A stretch of 39,829 nucleotides of DNA from assembly GCA_028712885.1 (NCBI GenBank), contig JAQTPK010000025.1:1-39829 (forward strand), in the 5' to 3' direction. Source of the DNA: Syntrophales bacterium. GTDB taxonomy: Bacteria > Desulfobacterota > Syntrophia > Syntrophales > UBA4778. Shown piece after piece: positions 1,716 to 23,020 of the stretch (position 1 is the first letter of the stretch; every line of letters starts with the position of its first letter). The position numbers and the translations under genes were made by a program. The notes under the pieces were generated by a model. The model saw nothing but the letters and a program-made list of their open reading frames with translations. It ran no database searches and was not told the DNA's origin.

Positions 1716-1874
1716 AGCTGGTTTCCTAAGTCCTCCCGTCAAAATTAAATTGAAAATACTTAGCCTTTGCCTTCCTGTAGGATATTTTCTTACATACAAT
1801 TACAATTGCTAATTACGTTATTTTTTGTTCTATATGACAAACTTCATAGATGGACTTCTCCCAGGAGGACAGTG

Positions 1875-3953
1875 ATGCCGGTCAAATCTCTGGAGCTGCA
1901 CACGGAAGAAGCCCTTTCAAAAGAGCCCAGGACTGCTCAATCCATCGGCAATGAAGAAGTCATCTTGTCAACGCCGGTTGACATCACCGCCCAAAAGCAG
2001 ACGGAAGAGGTCCTGCGCAAGAGCGCCGAGCGCCGGAGAGTTGCGGAGGCCGTCGGGGAAGAAAGGCAACGGCTTTTTGACGTTCTGGAAGCGTTACCGG
2101 CAATGATTTGTCTGCTGACCCCGGATCATCACGTGGCGTACGCAAATCGGAGTTTCCGCGAGAAATTCGGCGAGGCTGATGGTCGGCGCTGCTACGAATA
2201 CTGTTTCGGACGCAGCAAACCCTGCAATTTTTGCGAGAGCCACCGGGTGTTGAAAACCGGAAAATCGCATCGATGGGAAATGAAGTGGCCGAACGGCAGC
2301 GTTATTGACGTGTATGGCATCCCCTTTACCGACGTGGACGGCTCTCCGATGATCCTGGAAATGAATACCGACATCACCGCCTTCAGACGGACGGAAGAAG
2401 CCTTGATGGCGGAGCGGCAGCGGTTCCACGATGTTTTGGACATTCTGCCCGCTTATGTCGTACTGTTGACGCCGGATTACCATGTGCCTTTCGCGAATCG
2501 CTTTTTTGAAACTCGTTTCGGAAAAGCCGAAGGCCGCCGTTGCTTCGAGTATCTTTTCGGACGAACCGAGCCCTGTGAGATATGCGAAACTTACTCCGTT
2601 CTGAAGACCAGGCAGAGCCACGAGTGGGAGTGGACGGGCCCGGATGGACGCAATTACTACATTTTCGATTTCCCCTTCACCGACGTCAATGGCGCCGATT
2701 CCATCCTTGAGGTGGGTCTGGACATTACCGAAAAAAAGCGAACGGAAGAGGAACTGCGTCAGGCCCACGCTGAGCTTGAGGCAAAGGTCAAGGAAAGAAC
2801 GGCGGCCCTTGAAGGGGAAATAAGAGAGCGCAAGCGGGCGGAAGAAGCGTTGCGCAAGAACGAGACGCTCCTTCGCGCCGTCACTGATAATAATCCTGAC
2901 CCTATTTTCATGAAAGACAGCAGAGGCCGTCTTGTGTATGCGAACCCGGCGACCCTGCGAATGATCGGCAAGACAATCGATGATGTCATAGGCAAAACGG
3001 ACGAAGACTTCTATGTCAATACAGCCGATGGCCGCGCTATAATGGAGAACGACCGGAGGATCATGGATTCCCGCCAGAGTGAAATTGTCGAAGAATCCTT
3101 GTCTAATCCCGACGGATCGAAGCGCTTCTACATTTCCAGTAAAGCCCCGTTTTACGACGCCCGGGGACAGATCCTCGGTCTCATCGGAGTAGGCCACGAA
3201 ATCACCGATCGCAAGCTGGCCGAGGAGGCTTTGCGCGATCGGGAATCGCGGTACAGGCAATTGGCCCTCAGGCTCGAACAGGTCAGAGAGGAAGAGCGGG
3301 CCGCCCTGGCGCGGGAGCTCCATGACGATCTGGGCCAGGTCCTCGCCGGCCTGGGATTCGACCTCGCATGGATTAATAAACGGATGTCCAATCATGACGG
3401 GGAAGTCAAACGCAAAGTGGAAAACATACGGAAATATGTCCGGACGGCCCTGCAGCGGCTGAGAATGGTATACACGCAGCTCCGTCCGGGTCTGCTGGAT
3501 GAAATGGGACTCTCGGCGGCGATCGAATCCCACATTTCAAGCTTCCAGGAAAAATCCGGCATTCTCACGATACTTGAGACTCATATTGATGAGAGGATAT
3601 TGAACACCGACCAGATCACGACTCTGTTCCGCATCATCCAGGAGAGCCTGACAAATGTATTCAAGCACGCCAAAGCGTCGGAAGTGAATGTGAGTCTTTC
3701 CCAAAAAAATGGAGATTTGGTCCTGATGGTGGCCGATAACGGAAAAGGCATACGTAAATCAGATCTGAAAAAGCAGCACTCTTTCGGGCTGGTCGGAATC
3801 GAGGAACGGATCAAAAAGCTGGGCGGGGAATTCGATATTCAGGGAAAGGCGGGCAAAGGCACGGTACTGACTGTCTCTATTCCGGTTTTACTAAAGTCTC
3901 AAGAAAAGGAAAGTTCAGAGTCCGGAGTTCAGAGTCCAGAGTTGCCCGAATAG
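1875..3953 (+). CDS. Orphan PAS-PAS-PAS histidine kinase (HisKA_3/NarL-LuxR type)
   Basis: A 692-residue soluble sensor kinase. The start is set by a perfect AGGAGG at 1863-1868, six bases before ATG 1875; the frame stays open further upstream (from TTG 1767) without a comparable site. Two related PAS domains (about 62-170 and 180-287) each carry C-x10-C-x2-C (C106/C117/C120 and C223/C234/C237), then a coiled coil (290-330), a third PAS (about 332-447) and a HisKA_3 dimerisation domain with phospho-acceptor His483 in ARELHDDLGQ. The HATPase domain has an N box near 590-597 (QESLTNVFKHA) and DNGKG (621-625). No transmembrane helix is seen, so it senses inside the cell. This kinase class normally pairs with LuxR-type regulators, but none is nearby. 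The last 15 or so codons are made of an intergenic repeat. Confidence 0.93.
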   Translation: MPVKSLELHTEEALSKEPRTAQSIGNEEVILSTPVDITAQKQTEEVLRKSAERRRVAEAVGEERQRLFDVLEALPAMICLLTPDHHVAYANRSFREKFGEADGRRCYEYCFGRSKPCNFCESHRVLKTGKSHRWEMKWPNGSVIDVYGIPFTDVDGSPMILEMNTDITAFRRTEEALMAERQRFHDVLDILPAYVVLLTPDYHVPFANRFFETRFGKAEGRRCFEYLFGRTEPCEICETYSVLKTRQSHEWEWTGPDGRNYYIFDFPFTDVNGADSILEVGLDITEKKRTEEELRQAHAELEAKVKERTAALEGEIRERKRAEEALRKNETLLRAVTDNNPDPIFMKDSRGRLVYANPATLRMIGKTIDDVIGKTDEDFYVNTADGRAIMENDRRIMDSRQSEIVEESLSNPDGSKRFYISSKAPFYDARGQILGLIGVGHEITDRKLAEEALRDRESRYRQLALRLEQVREEERAALARELHDDLGQVLAGLGFDLAWINKRMSNHDGEVKRKVENIRKYVRTALQRLRMVYTQLRPGLLDEMGLSAAIESHISSFQEKSGILTILETHIDERILNTDQITTLFRIIQESLTNVFKHAKASEVNVSLSQKNGDLVLMVADNGKGIRKSDLKKQHSFGLVGIEERIKKLGGEFDIQGKAGKGTVLTVSIPVLLKSQEKESSESGVQSPELPE
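3912..3945. repeat. GTTCAGAGT repeat read through as coding sequence
   Basis: Positions 3912-3935 are identical over 24 nt to 1599-1622. Here the repeat lies in frame in the kinase gene and encodes the tail SSESGVQSPELPE, so the repeat has extended the protein or captured its stop codon. Confidence 0.85.
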
Positions 3954-3988
3954 TTAAAATTGCTAGATTTTGCGTACCTCTTGTCCGA

Positions 3989-4089
3989 ATTTTCAGGCAG
4001 GCTGTTCAGAATGCCCGGCTGCAAGGCGCCCTTCGACAAGCTCAGGACAGGCTCCGCAGACGGGCGTTTATCAACAGCCTGCCTAAAAT
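3989..4089. repeat. REP-like palindromic element, copy 1
   Basis: The left arm ATTTTCAGGCAGGCTGTT (3989-4006) pairs with the right arm AACAGCCTGCCTAAAAT (4073-4089) with one indel, and inner ATGCCCG / CGGGCGT pairs extend the stem. The core contains TTCGACAAGCTCAGGACAGG, a word shared with the copy at 20443-20585. It lies between convergent genes and overlaps the lptE stop codon. Confidence 0.85.
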
Positions 4090-4631
4090 CCCGACATGAG
4101 AGCGCGGAACGCCCTCTGCGCCATATCCTCCGCCAGCAGCTGGAGGGCGGCTCGGCGGTTCTGATCCGTTACGAAGGGGTTGCCCTGGCTCACCCGGTAA
4201 TCCCTGTAGCCGCTGAATCCCGGATCCTTCCAGATGATGACGGGTTTCCCTCTTTCCACAAGCTCCGGGTTGGCCTCGAAGCTGACGTCCATCACAACGG
4301 TCAGGCGCTCTTCGGTGGCGATATCCGCCCTCGTATAAGAAAGGTGGCCGGTGGAAACGCTGTTCATTCCGCCCCGCAGGACGGCATCGGCCTGATCGCG
4401 GCTTTCCGCCAGCCGGAACCGGGTGCTCCTGCGGAACTGGTCGAGGAACGCATTCCTGAAGATCACTTCCAGCTCGGCTTCGCTCGTCCGGTTGGAGAAA
4501 TTGTCCACATATACCCTCTTGATCACGGGATCGATGTGTTCCCCGCCGGGTGAAAACCTGTACCCGCAGGAGCTCCCGAGCAGAACCAGAAACGACATAA
4601 CGCCAAAAACCAGAACTTTTCTTCTCAGCAT
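4083..4631 (-). CDS. lptE: LPS-assembly lipoprotein LptE
   Basis: LptE plugs the LptD barrel and helps place lipopolysaccharide in the outer membrane. The 182-residue protein begins with a lysine/arginine-rich N-region and hydrophobic stretch ending GSSCGYRF; Cys22 followed by GY is typical of LptE lipoproteins, although the -3 residue is Gly rather than Leu. The body has the family pattern IKRVYVDNFSNRT followed by E-x-x-F-R-N-A-F-x-D-Q-F. It follows leuS by about 100 nt on the same strand, the conserved leuS-lptE order, but holA, which usually follows, is missing. The TAG stop lies inside the REP-like element at 3989-4089, so the native C-terminus may have been altered. An outer-membrane LPS system implies a Gram-negative cell. 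Confidence 0.9.
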   Translation of the reverse strand: MLRRKVLVFGVMSFLVLLGSSCGYRFSPGGEHIDPVIKRVYVDNFSNRTSEAELEVIFRNAFLDQFRRSTRFRLAESRDQADAVLRGGMNSVSTGHLSYTRADIATEERLTVVMDVSFEANPELVERGKPVIIWKDPGFSGYRDYRVSQGNPFVTDQNRRAALQLLAEDMAQRAFRALMSGF

Positions 4632-4649
4632 TTTTTCCGCCCATCCTGA

Positions 4650-4667
4650 CGCAGGCTGAAGCCTGCG
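4650..4667. repeat. Short palindrome CGCAGGC-TGAA-GCCTGCG
   Basis: A perfect 7-bp stem with a 4-nt loop between leuS and lptE. It resembles small dispersed REP-type palindromes; there is no T tract on either side. Confidence 0.6.
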
Positions 4668-4733
4668 ACTGCCGTTTTAAGGGATCTTTTCGCGCCCTAA
4701 ATCCGCTGCGCGGCAATGTCCAATGTCTAACGT

Positions 4734-11979: not shown

Positions 11980-12080
11980 CGTAAGTCGTAAAGCGTGAGG
12001 TGTAAGGTGTTTCCGGTAAAATTACCTTACGCCTTACCCTTCACCTGCGGTTAACCGGACCGGAAACCGGAAACCAGAAA
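11980..12080. repeat. Degenerate GTAAGGTGT-type facing repeats plus CGGAAAC run
   Basis: GTAAAGCGTGAGGTGTAAGGTG (split over 11988-12009) faces ACCTTACGCCTTACCC-type words (12024-12040). Then comes a short tandem run of CCGGAAACC words up to the glyA stop. It is the same repeat style as at 13914-13993. Confidence 0.7.
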
Positions 12081-13913: not shown

Positions 13914-13993
13914 GTCGTAAAGCGTGAGAAGTAAGGAGTGAGGTGATTTTCTTTTAAGGAACACCTTACGCCTCACGATTTACTCTTTACGAT
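13914..13993. repeat. Long facing pair of GTCGTAAAGCGTGAG-type repeats
   Basis: The left arm 13914-13945 and the right arm 13962-13993 are imperfect reverse complements over 32 nt, built from words such as CGTAAAG, GTAAGGAG and GTGAGGTG. The right arm runs into the fabF stop codon. The transcript could form a long hairpin between fabF and rpiB. Confidence 0.8.
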
Positions 13994-19993: not shown

Positions 19994-20104
19994 CTTTTGG
20001 TCTGTCAGGAATAGTACTCCTTACACCTTACGATTCACGCTTTACGCCCTTTTTTATTGACATCGCGGAATCGTTCGTTTAAATTTCCGCTTCCCAAAGA
20101 ATTT

Positions 20105-20251: not shown

Positions 20252-20326
20252 GGTCCCATCGTCTAGTGGTTAGGACGCTGGCCTCTCACGCCGGAAACCG
20301 GAGTTCAACTCTCCGTGGGACTACCA
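20252..20326 (+). tRNA. tRNA-Glu (CTC)
   Basis: A 75-nt cloverleaf with acceptor GGTCCCA / TGGGACT, discriminator A and encoded CCA. The D arm is GTCTAGTGGTTAGGAC, the anticodon loop CTCTCAC (anticodon CTC), and the T arm CGGAGTTCAACTCTCCG. The 3' half from 20281 on is duplicated perfectly 2.5 kb downstream, which marks it as an integration site. Confidence 0.97.
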
Positions 20327-20335
20327 AAATAAAAA
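20281..20335 (+). repeat. Left attachment-like repeat (inside tRNA-Glu)
   Basis: A 55-bp block, from the anticodon loop of tRNA-Glu through CCA into the terminator stem, is identical to 22818-22872. It has the position and size expected of a tRNA attachment core. Confidence 0.88.
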
Positions 20336-20364
20336 GGGCCGCTTCATGCGGCTCTTTTTATTTT
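20326..20364 (+). terminator. Terminator of the tRNA-Gln/tRNA-Glu unit
   Basis: AAAATAAAAAGGGCCGC pairs with GCGGCTCTTTTTATTTT around a short TTCAT loop, starting at the tRNA 3' end. The stem is nearly perfect and has its own T-rich 3' side. Confidence 0.93.
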
Positions 20365-20442
20365 GGGGTTTCTAGTTTCGAGTTTCTGGTTTCTAGTTAC
20401 TTCCAGGTAGTGTTGGACCAGAAATAAGGAAGACCTTTCACT

Positions 20443-20585
20443 CAGGCTGTCCAAAATTGCTCAGATACGAGGCCCATCCTTCGACTGCGCTCAGGACAGG
20501 CTCCGGCCCGAGGCGCGCAGCGTACTTTTTACGTACGTGAGCACCGAGGGCCAAGGGAAACGAAGTAGATGAGTGATTTTGGGCA
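20443..20585. repeat. REP-like palindromic element, copy 2
   Basis: The left arm CAGGCTGTCCAAAATTGCTC (20443-20462) faces GAGTGATTTTGGGCA (20571-20585), with the outer GCCTG missing on the right. The core has TCGACTGCGCTCAGGACAGG, shared with copy 1, and an inner palindrome GTACTTTTTACGTAC. Its right end is fused directly to a degenerate tRNA. Confidence 0.8.
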
Positions 20586-20657
20586 TCCGCGTCTAGTGGT
20601 CAGGACGCCGGCCGACCCCCGCCGGAAACCTGGGTCCAAATCCCGGAGGGATCACCA
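20582..20657 (+). pseudogene. Degenerate tRNA, tRNA-Glu-like
   Basis: The D arm GTCTAGTGGTCAGGAC, the anticodon stem CCGGC / GCCGG and a T stem CTGGG / CCCGG are kept and CCA is present. The acceptor arms GGCATCC and AGGGATC do not pair, position 33 is G instead of T, and the loop would read ACC. The 5' end is replaced by the REP-like element. It is a tRNA relic, most like tRNA-Glu. Confidence 0.8.
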
Positions 20658-20709
20658 AAGAATTACTGTGAGTTGCGAACTTTATATTATTTTTCACTGT
20701 ATGGTAATA

Positions 20710-20727
20710 TTTCAGCAATCGTTGAAA
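20710..20727. promoter_or_regulatory. Upstream operator-like palindrome O1
   Basis: TTTCAGCAATCGTTGAAA is an inverted repeat with one mismatch (TTTCAGC / GTTGAAA) around a 4-nt spacer. It is the same design as O2 and lies 76 bp away centre to centre. Confidence 0.7.
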
Positions 20728-20752
20728 ACAGCATAAATGGTGATAATTGGTC

Positions 20753-20781
20753 TTGACATTTGTAATATTTCACCCTATTGT
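20753..20781 (+). promoter_or_regulatory. Sigma-70 promoter of the AbiE-like pair
   Basis: TTGACA (20753-20758), a 17-nt spacer and TATTGT (20776-20781) form a near-consensus promoter. Transcription would begin near 20788, inside operator O2 and about 28 nt before the chosen start codon. Confidence 0.8.
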
Positions 20782-20785
20782 CAAT

Positions 20786-20803
20786 TTTCAGCGAATGCTG
20801 AAA
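20786..20803. promoter_or_regulatory. Downstream operator-like palindrome O2
   Basis: TTTCAGCGAATGCTGAAA has perfect 7-bp arms around GAAT and covers the expected transcription start. A repressor here would block initiation. Together with O1 it fits autoregulation by the winged-helix protein encoded next. Confidence 0.8.
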
Positions 20804-20815
20804 GGTTTATTTTTA

Positions 20816-21874
20816 ATGAAAAAACTTGGCAATGAAATAGAGATCCAAGCATTGGAGGCTCTCAAGACCTGCCTGAAGCGGGTTCCTTTTTTGACGGTGG
20901 AATCTGTAGAGCAAGAGCCTCGTACTAATGATGCACAGTTCGATATCCTGGCAAGAGTGCGTATCGCCCAAGAATGGCAGAATATTGCTGTGGAAGTGAA
21001 AGGGAATGGCCAGCCCAGGATAGTTCGTTCAGCCATTTTCCAGCTCCTGCGATATCGCGAAAAAAATCCCGATGCGTACTGCGTGGTTATCGCGCCTTAC
21101 ATTTCTCCACAATCAGCGGCGATATGTGCAAAGGAGGATATCGGATACATAGACCTCGCCGGCAACTGCCGGCTAACCTTTGACAAGGTATATATAGAAC
21201 AGGAAGGGAAGGCTAATCCCTTTGCCGTAAAGAGGGATTTGCGATCCCTTTATTCCCCAAAGGGCGAGCGGGTACTTCGCGTACTTCTGAACGATCCCAA
21301 AAAAGCATGGCGGGTCCAGTCTCTATCAGCAGAGGCCGTTGTAAGCCTCGGACAGGTTTCCAATGTAAAGCGCTTGCTTGAAAACCGTGAATGGCTCATA
21401 AGTACTGACGCTGGCCTGGTGCTCAACGCCCCTGATCAACTTTTGACCGAATGGTCGGAAAACTACAACTTTAGCAGGAACATAACGCGGAATTACTACA
21501 CCCTGAAAACCATGGCAGAGATCGAGGCCGATCTGGCTGAGTGCTGCATGAAAAAGGGAATCAGCTACGCCCTGACCGGTTTTTCTGCGGCGGCAAGATA
21601 CGCACCTGCTGTGCGCTACCAGCGGGCAATGGCCTATGTCGGGGAAAAAGCTGACAAGGTGACCGAGTCTCTTTCACTGAAAGAAGTTTCCAGCGGGGCC
21701 AATATGACACTCCTTTACCCTTATGACGAAGGCGTCATATACGGTTCACGATTGATTGATAGAATACAGGTGGCAATGCCGGTCCAAGTGTATCTTGATC
21801 TCTTATCGATGAAAGGCAGAGGGGAAGAAGCAGCCGCAATTTTGCTGGACGAGGTGATTAAGAAGCAATGGTAA
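20816..21874 (+). CDS. AbiEi-like antitoxin/regulator with a PD-(D/E)XK-like N-terminal domain
   Basis: 352 residues. I place the start at ATG 20816 (GAAAGG about ten bases upstream); the frame is open further up, but that region contains the promoter and O2. Residues 1-135 look like a restriction-nuclease-like fold: Asp43 in QFDILARV, Glu60-x-Lys62 in VEVKGNG and Gln76 in the next helix. After GYIDLAGN (110-117) comes a winged helix (about 148-195, GERVLRVLL...VSNVKRLLENREWL) and an AbiEi-like C-terminal domain. AbiEi antitoxins repress their own operon through operator repeats, which matches O1/O2. It overlaps the toxin gene by 7 nt. The family call is inferred from layout and partner; nuclease activity is only suggested. 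Confidence 0.75.
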   Translation: MKKLGNEIEIQALEALKTCLKRVPFLTVESVEQEPRTNDAQFDILARVRIAQEWQNIAVEVKGNGQPRIVRSAIFQLLRYREKNPDAYCVVIAPYISPQSAAICAKEDIGYIDLAGNCRLTFDKVYIEQEGKANPFAVKRDLRSLYSPKGERVLRVLLNDPKKAWRVQSLSAEAVVSLGQVSNVKRLLENREWLISTDAGLVLNAPDQLLTEWSENYNFSRNITRNYYTLKTMAEIEADLAECCMKKGISYALTGFSAAARYAPAVRYQRAMAYVGEKADKVTESLSLKEVSSGANMTLLYPYDEGVIYGSRLIDRIQVAMPVQVYLDLLSMKGRGEEAAAILLDEVIKKQW

Positions 21875-22692
21875 CCCGAAGGGATTATACTGCCGACGCG
21901 GTACAGGCAGCCAAATCCGTCCTGATTGAGCTGATGCATCTGCTTGGTGAGTACAGAGACGATATCGTCGTGATTGGAGGGTGGGTGCCGGAATTGTTAT
22001 TACCGCAGGAACCCTACCCCCATGTAGGAAGCATGGATATTGACCTTGCCCTGAACCACTTGAAGATTCAGGACGGATACAAGATGATTGAAGAACTTCT
22101 CATCTCCCGTGGGTACTATCAGGAAGAAGGCAAGCAGCCTTTCATCTTCTTCAGGGATCTTCCTGTTAAAGGACAGACCATCAAGGTGCAGGTGGATCTT
22201 TTATCAGGAGAGTATGAGGGAACTGGAAAAGGCCGCCGGCATCAGGTTGTACAAGGAATGAAAGCCCGTAAAGTACGCGGTTGTGACATTGCCTTTGACA
22301 TGGCTGAAGAGATTTCTATTGATGGAGAAATCCCTGGGGGCGGTCAAGACCGCGTTACTGTCAGGGTTGCTTCGATCGTCCCATTCATAATAATGAAAGG
22401 GATGGCATTAGACGATCGGCTGAAAGAAAAAGATGCTTGGGACATCTATTTCTGCATCCGTTCCTATCCCGGCGGGGTTGATACTTTGGCTGAGGAATTC
22501 CGTCCTCACTTATCGCACGGCTTGATTCAGGAAGGCCTTACAAAAATCGGAAAACACTTCGCCGGAATCACATCAATCGGCCCCAAATTCGTTGCAGATT
22601 TTGAGATGCCGGAAGACGCTGAAGATAGGGAACGGATTATCCGTGATGCATTTGAGCGGATAACTGCGCTTTTGGAAAAGCTGAAGGTTTGA
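21868..22692 (+). CDS. AbiEii-like nucleotidyltransferase (putative toxin)
   Basis: 274 residues with the nucleotidyltransferase signature: Gly37-Gly38 in VVIGGWVPELL, the metal pair Asp57-x-Asp59 in GSMDIDLAL, and a third acidic residue Asp110 in VQVDLL. A helical part follows with MKGMAL (176-181) and EKDAWDIY (187-194), the K-x-x-D-x-x-D motif of AbiEii/AbiGii proteins. AbiEii enzymes are toxins thought to modify RNA with nucleotides, causing growth arrest and phage resistance. The start ATG overlaps the antitoxin stop (ATGGTAA), so the pair is coupled. No other gene lies in the island. Confidence 0.82.
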   Translation: MVTRRDYTADAVQAAKSVLIELMHLLGEYRDDIVVIGGWVPELLLPQEPYPHVGSMDIDLALNHLKIQDGYKMIEELLISRGYYQEEGKQPFIFFRDLPVKGQTIKVQVDLLSGEYEGTGKGRRHQVVQGMKARKVRGCDIAFDMAEEISIDGEIPGGGQDRVTVRVASIVPFIIMKGMALDDRLKEKDAWDIYFCIRSYPGGVDTLAEEFRPHLSHGLIQEGLTKIGKHFAGITSIGPKFVADFEMPEDAEDRERIIRDAFERITALLEKLKV

Positions 22693-22695
22693 AAA

Positions 22696-22759
22696 GTGTG
22701 TGTCCTTTTCTCCAAAATCGGGGTAAAATGATTGCACAACTACCCGGGAGGACACACAC
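22696..22759. repeat. 11-bp inverted repeat after the toxin gene
   Basis: GTGTGTGTCCT (22696-22706) and AGGACACACAC (22749-22759) are exact reverse complements 42 nt apart. It starts 3 nt after the toxin stop. No T tract follows, so it may be a solo inverted-repeat element or the ends of a lost insertion rather than a terminator. Confidence 0.65.
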
Positions 22760-22817
22760 GCTTCAATAAAATAAAAAACTTACAATAAAACAGGTGACTT
22801 AGATATCTTTCCGGTTA

Positions 22818-22863
22818 GCCTCTCACGCCGGAAACCGGAGTTCAACTCTCCGTGGGACTACCA
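22818..22863 (+). pseudogene. tRNA-Glu 3' fragment
   Basis: The fragment begins at the anticodon loop, contains the T arm, 3' acceptor strand and CCA, and lacks the 5' half. It is the displaced end of the tRNA-Glu target after integration. It has no upstream tRNA part and cannot function. Confidence 0.9.
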
Positions 22864-22872
22864 AAATAAAAA
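22818..22872 (+). repeat. Right attachment-like repeat
   Basis: Identical over 55 bp to 20281-20335. The matching ends on both sides at unrelated sequence (CTG versus TTA upstream), which defines the repeat borders. Confidence 0.88.
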
Positions 22873-22901
22873 AGGCTGCTTTCGGCAGCCTTTTCTATTT
22901 T
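22863..22901 (+). terminator. Terminator at the displaced tRNA-Glu end
   Basis: AAGGCTGC TTT CGGCAGCCTT with A-rich and T-rich flanks. Its stem differs from the terminator at 20326-20364, although the first bases are shared; one of them came with the island. A degenerate GAGTTTCGAG repeat follows both terminators (20366-20400 and 22903-22937); 22938-23020 holds nothing I recognise. Confidence 0.85.
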
Positions 22902-23020
22902 GGAGTTCCGAGTTTCGAGTCTCGGGTTTCGAGTTGCCCCAGGAAAGAGAACAGGAGTCTCAGACCAGAAAGTCAAAAATAGCGACTGCCTCCCTTGAAT
23001 GTTCTTTGTAGTCGCACGTT

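Follow-up and report, generated by a model that had tools for sequence, protein, structure and literature searches.

A palindromic repeat, to all appearances non-coding, is dispersed through the genomes of Syntrophales bacteria, and we consider it reasonably probable (roughly 0.6) that it represents a mobile, or formerly mobile, intergenic family similar in size and build to ERIC and other MITE-like elements. The family is polar: about half of the copies examined have their right end at the stop codon of a frame directed towards it. Smaller predicted hairpin modules, constant in their loop (TCGACARGCTC) and variable in their stems, are nested in the core of the repeat or replace it, as in the first of the two copies described below.

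Two copies in one contig

The window analysed here, a stretch of 39,829 nucleotides, is one contig of a 2.93 Mb source genome (G000) assembled at 99.2% completeness in 97 contigs. By comparison of leucyl-tRNA synthetase, the closest named relative is the Syntrophaceae genome UBA4054 (77%), which we take to be our genome G001, the lptE regions of the two reading alike. An earlier note on this DNA had described two copies of a repeat with facing GGCTGT-type arms and a CAGGACAGGC core, and direct reading and searches recovered both. Copy 1 lies between convergent genes, lptE (4083..4631, minus strand; Pfam PF04390, E 4.1e-16) and a PAS/HisKA_3/HATPase sensor kinase (1767..3953, plus strand; the open frame as listed, with a putative start). 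Its left arm (3999..4029, plus strand; model R1, E 1.9e-6 in its own genome) and its right arm (4051..4080, minus strand; model R2, E 2.1e-5) were found with models that include the copy 1 arms themselves, and the outer end of the right arm is 2 nt behind the lptE stop. The core has been swapped for a smaller hairpin module (CTTCGACAAGCTCAGG...); this putative REP-like hairpin (CCTTCGACAAGCTCAGGACAGGC; 4030..4052, plus strand) follows the pattern CTTCGACARGCTCAGGNC, a constant loop with different stems. Pairing runs outward past the arms to 3990 and 4088, and the whole hairpin with its copy-specific extension (TTTT-C-AGGC ... GCCT-AAAA) occupies 3990..4088 on the plus strand. Folded as single-stranded DNA, copy 1 has a z-score of -6.16, and none of 200 shuffles was as good.

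Copy 2 (20444..20585, plus strand) is located downstream of a tRNA-Glu gene. It keeps the canonical core, carries an inner module (CCTTCGACTGCGCTCAGGACAGGCTCC; 20478..20504, plus strand, approximate limits read directly) between left arm and core, and is truncated at its right end: the left arm (20444-20475, plus strand) faces a shortened, weak right arm (20560-20585, minus strand; E 0.12). Behind it (20590-20645) is a degenerate tRNA-Glu-like remnant, 81% identical over 57 nt and not called by ARAGORN.

Other repeats were seen in the same contig. A segment of 118 nt that includes the 3' half of tRNA-Glu (20281-20398) recurs at 22818-22935 with 87% identity, 46 nt of the tRNA being 100% identical. 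Between these tRNA-Glu repeats (20252-22935) lie an AbiEi-type gene (20747-21874; Pfam E 6e-18) and a frame of 274 aa that matches AbiEii weakly (E 0.0027), an arrangement that resembles a toxin-antitoxin cassette which has entered at a tRNA gene. Short repeated words of the AGTTCAGAGTCCGGAGTTCAGAGT type occur at 1599-1718, 3912-3949 and 22897-22934, in intergenic sequence and in the 3' end of the kinase gene, and a further dispersed repeat of the ACACCTTACGCCTCACGATTTAC type is found in both orientations at 11980-12011, 13960-13991 and 20016-20052.

Size and architecture of the family

The earlier note would have been contradicted had these been the only two copies in the genome; the genome-wide arm search found 33 distinct paired copies in G000, some with one weak arm. 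The arm models gave 48 left-arm and 43 right-arm matches at E<=1, of which pairing took in 45 and 41 respectively; the 36 resulting pairings include three alternative pairings of one right arm, hence 33 copies. Beyond the source genome, the left arm was present in 82 of 149 sampled Syntrophales genomes (E<=0.01), with 76 matches in G001. Three sets of copies were compared. The source genome's own set holds 28 copies (29 of the 36 pairings were read and one composite was dropped), with five remaining copies read later and counted apart; the G001 set holds 60 copies from 74 loci, 13 further left arms being unpaired; and the set from other genomes holds 60 copies from 70 loci, the other 10 having no detectable right arm. 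Loci in this last set were picked from the best-scoring matches and include several orthologous pairs (among them L297/L299, L296/L298, L201/L203 and L287/L316), and since copies are related the counts given below are not independent. By a crude longest-frame caller, indicative only, three of the 28 own copies fell inside an open frame and eight of the 28 lay between convergent genes. No Rfam family matched five repeat loci at E<=1, one canonical copy had no match in phage and plasmid records at E<=1e-5, and one exact left-arm form was absent from viral contigs.

The canonical unit is an imperfect palindrome of about 120 bp (113-124 nt, and mostly 118-122 bp where the canonical core is present). 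It consists of a left arm AGGCTGTTCAAAAATGCCCAGATGCAAGGC, a central hairpin around GTAC...GTAC and a right arm GCAGATGGGCGTTTTTCAACAGCCT; the two arms are distinct, the right not being an exact complement of the left, and the unit has terminal inverted repeats, as expected of a MITE. In an alignment of 27 canonical copies, both sides had changed in 14 of 29 pairs and 97.2% of cells were paired, values reached by none of 500 shuffles; further pair types, one of five covariation measures, stood at shuffle level (163/500). Because the structure comes from that very alignment, slid controls are bound to favour it, and relatedness among the sequences can lift values above such shuffles. Read within these bounds, the alignment indicates that the repeat keeps its predicted hairpin by paired changes. 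In some relatives the left end seems to lie about 26 nt further out, near stop codons again. Loci of G001 (L227, L232 and others) were seen with the left end extended by a conserved piece of about 25 nt, GGTGTTGAAAAACACNCTTTTCATC, which is a small hairpin followed by T-rich sequence, and other genomes (L282-L291, L308, L309, L316) have TGTTGAAAAAGTC variants in its place.

Many copies, both of those in the window included, carry the smaller hairpin modules. The loop is constant in the sites searched for; the stems differ and mostly pair (TGGT/ACCA, CCCT/AGGG, TCCT/AGGA, CAGT/ACTG, TGCT/AGCA), and in each of the three sets stem complementarity was above all 200 shuffled pairings. The pattern shared with copy 1 has 16 matches in the source genome and occurs in 29 of the 149 Syntrophales genomes; the backward control gave 0 matches in the former and was found in none of the latter. 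One relative (G124) has 59 exact matches of an inner word, CTTCGACARGCTCAGG, which there forms dense arrays with a spacing of about 21-23 bp (contig C39, 34504-34868).

The two strands of the repeat are not equivalent. The arms alone paired more strongly on the left-to-right strand in 27/28 own copies, 56/60 copies of G001 and 54/60 of other genomes, and in four of the five own copies read later. In mirror geometry (column i with 127-i, columns 1-25) there were 514 Watson-Crick, 57 G-U, 5 A-C and 78 other cells. The left-to-right arm strand is thus predicted to pair more stably. A consensus structure can also be derived for the opposite strand, although it is weaker (-24.2 vs -30.4); in that structure its own-strand G-U pairs outnumber the others 55 to 20, which counts against the preference. 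In copy 1 the extended hairpin, taken whole, is nearly as stable on one strand as on the other, with a slight advantage for the opposite one (-53.5 vs -51.5). In the mRNA of a docked gene it is the weaker strand that is present, an argument against simple mRNA protection.

Stop codons and gene ends

An end was counted as docked when it had, within -2 to +6 nt, the stop of a reading frame no shorter than 300 nt. By this rule the right end was docked in 16/28 own copies, 30/60 copies of G001 and 24/60 of other genomes (70/148 in total), and the left end in 0/28, 1/60 and 2/60 (3/148), against a background in the same loci of 1.5-1.6% of positions, coding positions included. Under a stricter control, which took in only ends with such a stop no more than 150 nt away, 70 of 106 right ends and 3 of 78 left ends were docked. 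Distances from right end to stop peak at 1 and 2 nt, with an uncertainty of about 1 nt, the anchor varying among copies. Of the five own copies read later, two were docked (at 2 and 3 nt), one had its stop at 8 nt and two were undocked. Some stop triplet was present at the right end of 29 of the 78 undocked copies (2/12 own, 12/30 in G001 and 15/36 in other genomes) where the background is 20-22%. In the source genome the stop therefore appears to go with the gene; in the other genomes part of the stops may be borne by the element or come from short genes. The docked counts leave out frames that enter the right arm and terminate at the TGA there (9/60 in other genomes, 7/60 in G001); three such copies, in two genes, were compared with homologues, and others may be spurious frames.

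For lptE, the earlier note had claimed that the arm word TTTTAGGCAGG supplies the stop codon. The word is present on the minus strand (4088-4078), and the TAG within it (4085-4083) terminates the reading frame of the Pfam LptE protein. Judged against other copies, however, the family boundary is AGGCTG at 4080 and the TAG is 2 nt outside the shared sequence, within the copy-specific extension of the hairpin. Comparison of homologues leads to the same view: LptE ends at the same place in relatives without the arms, and the claim was rejected. Thirty LptE proteins were compared, our own and those of 29 relatives out of the 57 that gave a match. In 29 of them the alignment runs through to the final residue and no sequence follows it; the thirtieth has the same ending, and all 30 end in SGF or SDF. 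Arms directly behind the lptE stop were found only in the source genome and G001 among these 30, three other relatives having an arm-like match 257-661 nt away. Identical lptE ends in relatives lacking the element, which the earlier note itself had named as contrary evidence, are therefore what we observe, and the TAG at 4083..4085 (minus strand) is native and does not derive from the element. In a wider set of 80 named loci, 67 had an LptE match, and more distant groups end differently. At one of these loci (L107, a distant proteobacterial genome with a C-terminus unlike the others), a short GGCTGTTT...AAACAGCC palindrome lies directly behind the lptE stop; this GGCTGTTTtcaaatctgGAAACAGCC palindrome could be an ordinary terminator. 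The element of G001 is in the same place and orientation as that of the source genome, 2 nt behind the stop, and has been enlarged to about 520 bp by further sequence, with homologous frames flanking both sides of the insertion in the two genomes. Because the nearest relative has a copy in the same place and orientation, the element at lptE is probably old.

The more general proposal, that the element can rewrite gene ends, does not hold for lptE and finds its examples elsewhere. A protein which we take to be QueF-like, in two relatives (G005 and G024), ends ...AEYRASGC*, and its SGC together with the TGA is right-arm sequence. Among the 28 other homologues read, no arm is present at the gene end: 13 end two residues after AEY/AEH/AEF/TEY (e.g. 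AEYKK*) and 15 have other tails, so that the C-terminus is variable in any case. In a third relative (G012), a presumably YggS-like protein ends ...IFGERPCC* inside the arm, and none of 29 other homologues, with endings GERPSR, GERPAR and others, has an arm there. The family thus offers clear cases both of rewriting a protein end and of leaving it as it was.

Beyond the family boundary, the two flanks of a single copy tend to be complementary to each other. The mean flank score was 2.66 in own copies (shuffles -0.15, sd 0.43), 1.08 in G001 (0.43, sd 0.20) and 0.53 in other genomes (-0.39, sd 0.24), and in each set 0/200 shuffles reached the mean. The highest score belongs to the lptE copy, both among own copies and within G001. 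At this one locus the flank of the hairpin and the end of the gene show matching differences between two genera, the far flank ATTTTC facing gene sequence ATTTTAG in the source genome and ATTCTTC facing ATTCTAA in G001; this parallel difference is a single case. Because the gene side is constrained by coding, it is presumably the far flank that followed, through selection or hairpin-templated copying.

Mobility and relation to known repeats

If the repeat is a mobile or formerly mobile intergenic family, a trans-acting factor would insert or copy it near the 3' ends of genes; alternatively, the copies docked behind stops may be those that survive. The docked hairpin would then be a putative 3'-end structure of convergent transcripts, and its far flank would drift, or be copied, into complementarity with the end of the gene. 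Comparison of 38 own loci with 74 loci of G001 bears on this. About five own loci (lptE, L007, L009, L146 and L199) share homologous flanking frames with element-bearing loci of G001, placement and orientation having been checked for lptE only; a few further matches look like paralogues. Most own loci are without homologous neighbours in G001, which points to turnover. No pair of filled and empty sites was seen that would mark a recent insertion.

A first alternative is that the repeat is a classical MITE, descended by internal deletion from a DDE insertion sequence whose terminal repeats are of the AGGCTGTTGAAAAA type. Its terminal inverted repeats, size and copy number fit, and in some relatives another TGTTGAAAAA-like word occurs some 26 nt outward of the left arm. 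Target-site duplication, however, was not detected in any of the three sets, direct repeats being not clearly longer than in shuffles under either of two definitions of the left end in each set, and the arm spacing of at most about 520 bp (in pairing limited to 320-700 bp) is too short for a transposase gene. We regard this origin as unlikely, at perhaps one chance in five.

Marginally less probable again is a hairpin that does not move, a bidirectional terminator at the 3' ends of genes which is kept by selection and shared by recombination between copies. The docking at stops would be expected of such a hairpin, as would the convergent contexts of the eight own copies called by the crude method, the copy-specific matching of flank to flank and the roughly five positions that have homologous neighbours in both genomes. 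Set against this, the arm sequence is common to dozens of unrelated sites and most loci are without homologous neighbours between the two genera. Nor was there a terminator-like site at the lptE locus: the search of 3700-4700 returned 0 (shuffles mean 1.6), and a GC-rich hairpin followed by a U-tract, the signature of an intrinsic terminator, was absent at copy 1.

The least probable of the three, and in our judgement doubtful, is a REP/BIME family moved by a RAYT (Y1 transposase), since the palindromic, intergenic build near 3' ends with small REP-like hairpins inside, the occurrence of some Y1 gene in 106/149 Syntrophales genomes (three in G001) and a stronger pairing of one strand that would suit a single-stranded DNA mechanism are outweighed by the lack of a Y1 gene in the nearly complete source genome, by 21 Y1 loci in seven relatives with neither arms nor inner hairpin nearby, and by a unit and ends unlike those of REPs. 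The REP-associated transposase that the earlier note proposed to look for was thus not found: the Y1 profile (PF01797) matched nothing in G000 and, as a control, matched 5/14 genomes; the match-rich genomes G012, G005, G024 and G015 show no Y1 gene either; and at the Y1 loci of the relatives the arms were absent from the stretch examined and no inner hairpin occurred within about 700 bp.

A more elaborate version of the preferred reading, that of a mobile or formerly mobile intergenic family, may also be entertained. The mobile palindrome, probably single-stranded, would be steered to stop codons with fixed polarity and would then grow outward by copying the last codons of the gene into its far flank, the stop codon becoming part of the stem, while its inner loops (TCGACARGCTC) would serve as docking sites for further hairpins and so give rise to nested elements. 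We hold this whole sequence of events to be speculative and rather improbable.

REPs are described, in the part of the account by Di Nocera et al. (2013; PMC3733652) drawn on here, as units of 20-40 bp with a GTAG or CGTC tag that fall into super-families. The Syntrophales repeat resembles the REP elements and REPtrons of that account in being palindromic, dispersed, mainly intergenic and close to 3' ends, and with its 33 paired copies it is a high-copy, dispersed, extragenic palindrome. It differs from them in its length of about 120 bp, in its outer ends, which by eye are AGGCTG and not GTAG/CGTC, and in having no Y1 partner that we could find, so that in the strict sense the membership of the REP family suggested by the earlier note is not borne out. 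According to the section concerned of a 2025 survey (PMC12306157), ribosomes can be stalled by REPs of E. coli that lie no more than 15 nt from a stop, and the hairpin directly behind the stop codon is a likeness to them; unlike those REPs, compared by description from that section, it is one defined end of an asymmetric element that docks here, mostly at 1-2 nt.

ERIC/RU-1, RUP and NEMIS are bacterial MITE-like repeats of 100-170 bp, most of which have no known mobiliser according to the portion of Delihas (2007; PMC2229807) used here, and they share with the present family its size and long palindrome. ERIC itself is a 127-bp palindrome of enterobacterial consensus, to which the Syntrophales repeat is likened by size only. 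Unlike the ERIC-type repeats, compared by description in the same portion of that source, ours shows no duplication of flanking bases and has nested, exchangeable hairpin modules. Another delta-proteobacterium, Geobacter metallireducens, has several multicopy intergenic families, some of them palindromic, and one of its repeat sets reportedly resembles sequences from many genomes (in the extract of PMC2700814 considered); our repeat is like these multicopy intergenic sequences in forming palindromic repeat families, a comparison made by description and not by alignment. No published description of the Syntrophales repeat was found among the papers listed by the literature searches, which covered main texts outside subscription journals; this is no proof of absence.

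REP-type repeats touching stop codons are already in print, mostly as proximity. The present family adds an asymmetric element with strong one-sided docking, mostly at 1-2 nt, across many species. With it, two old questions can be put to the test by sequence alone: are such repeats directed to the ends of genes or do they simply persist there, and on which of the two strands does the selected hairpin act? Contact with the stop is a known habit of palindromic repeats, then, and what sets the present family apart is the larger asymmetric unit, the docking by one side and the nesting of modules.
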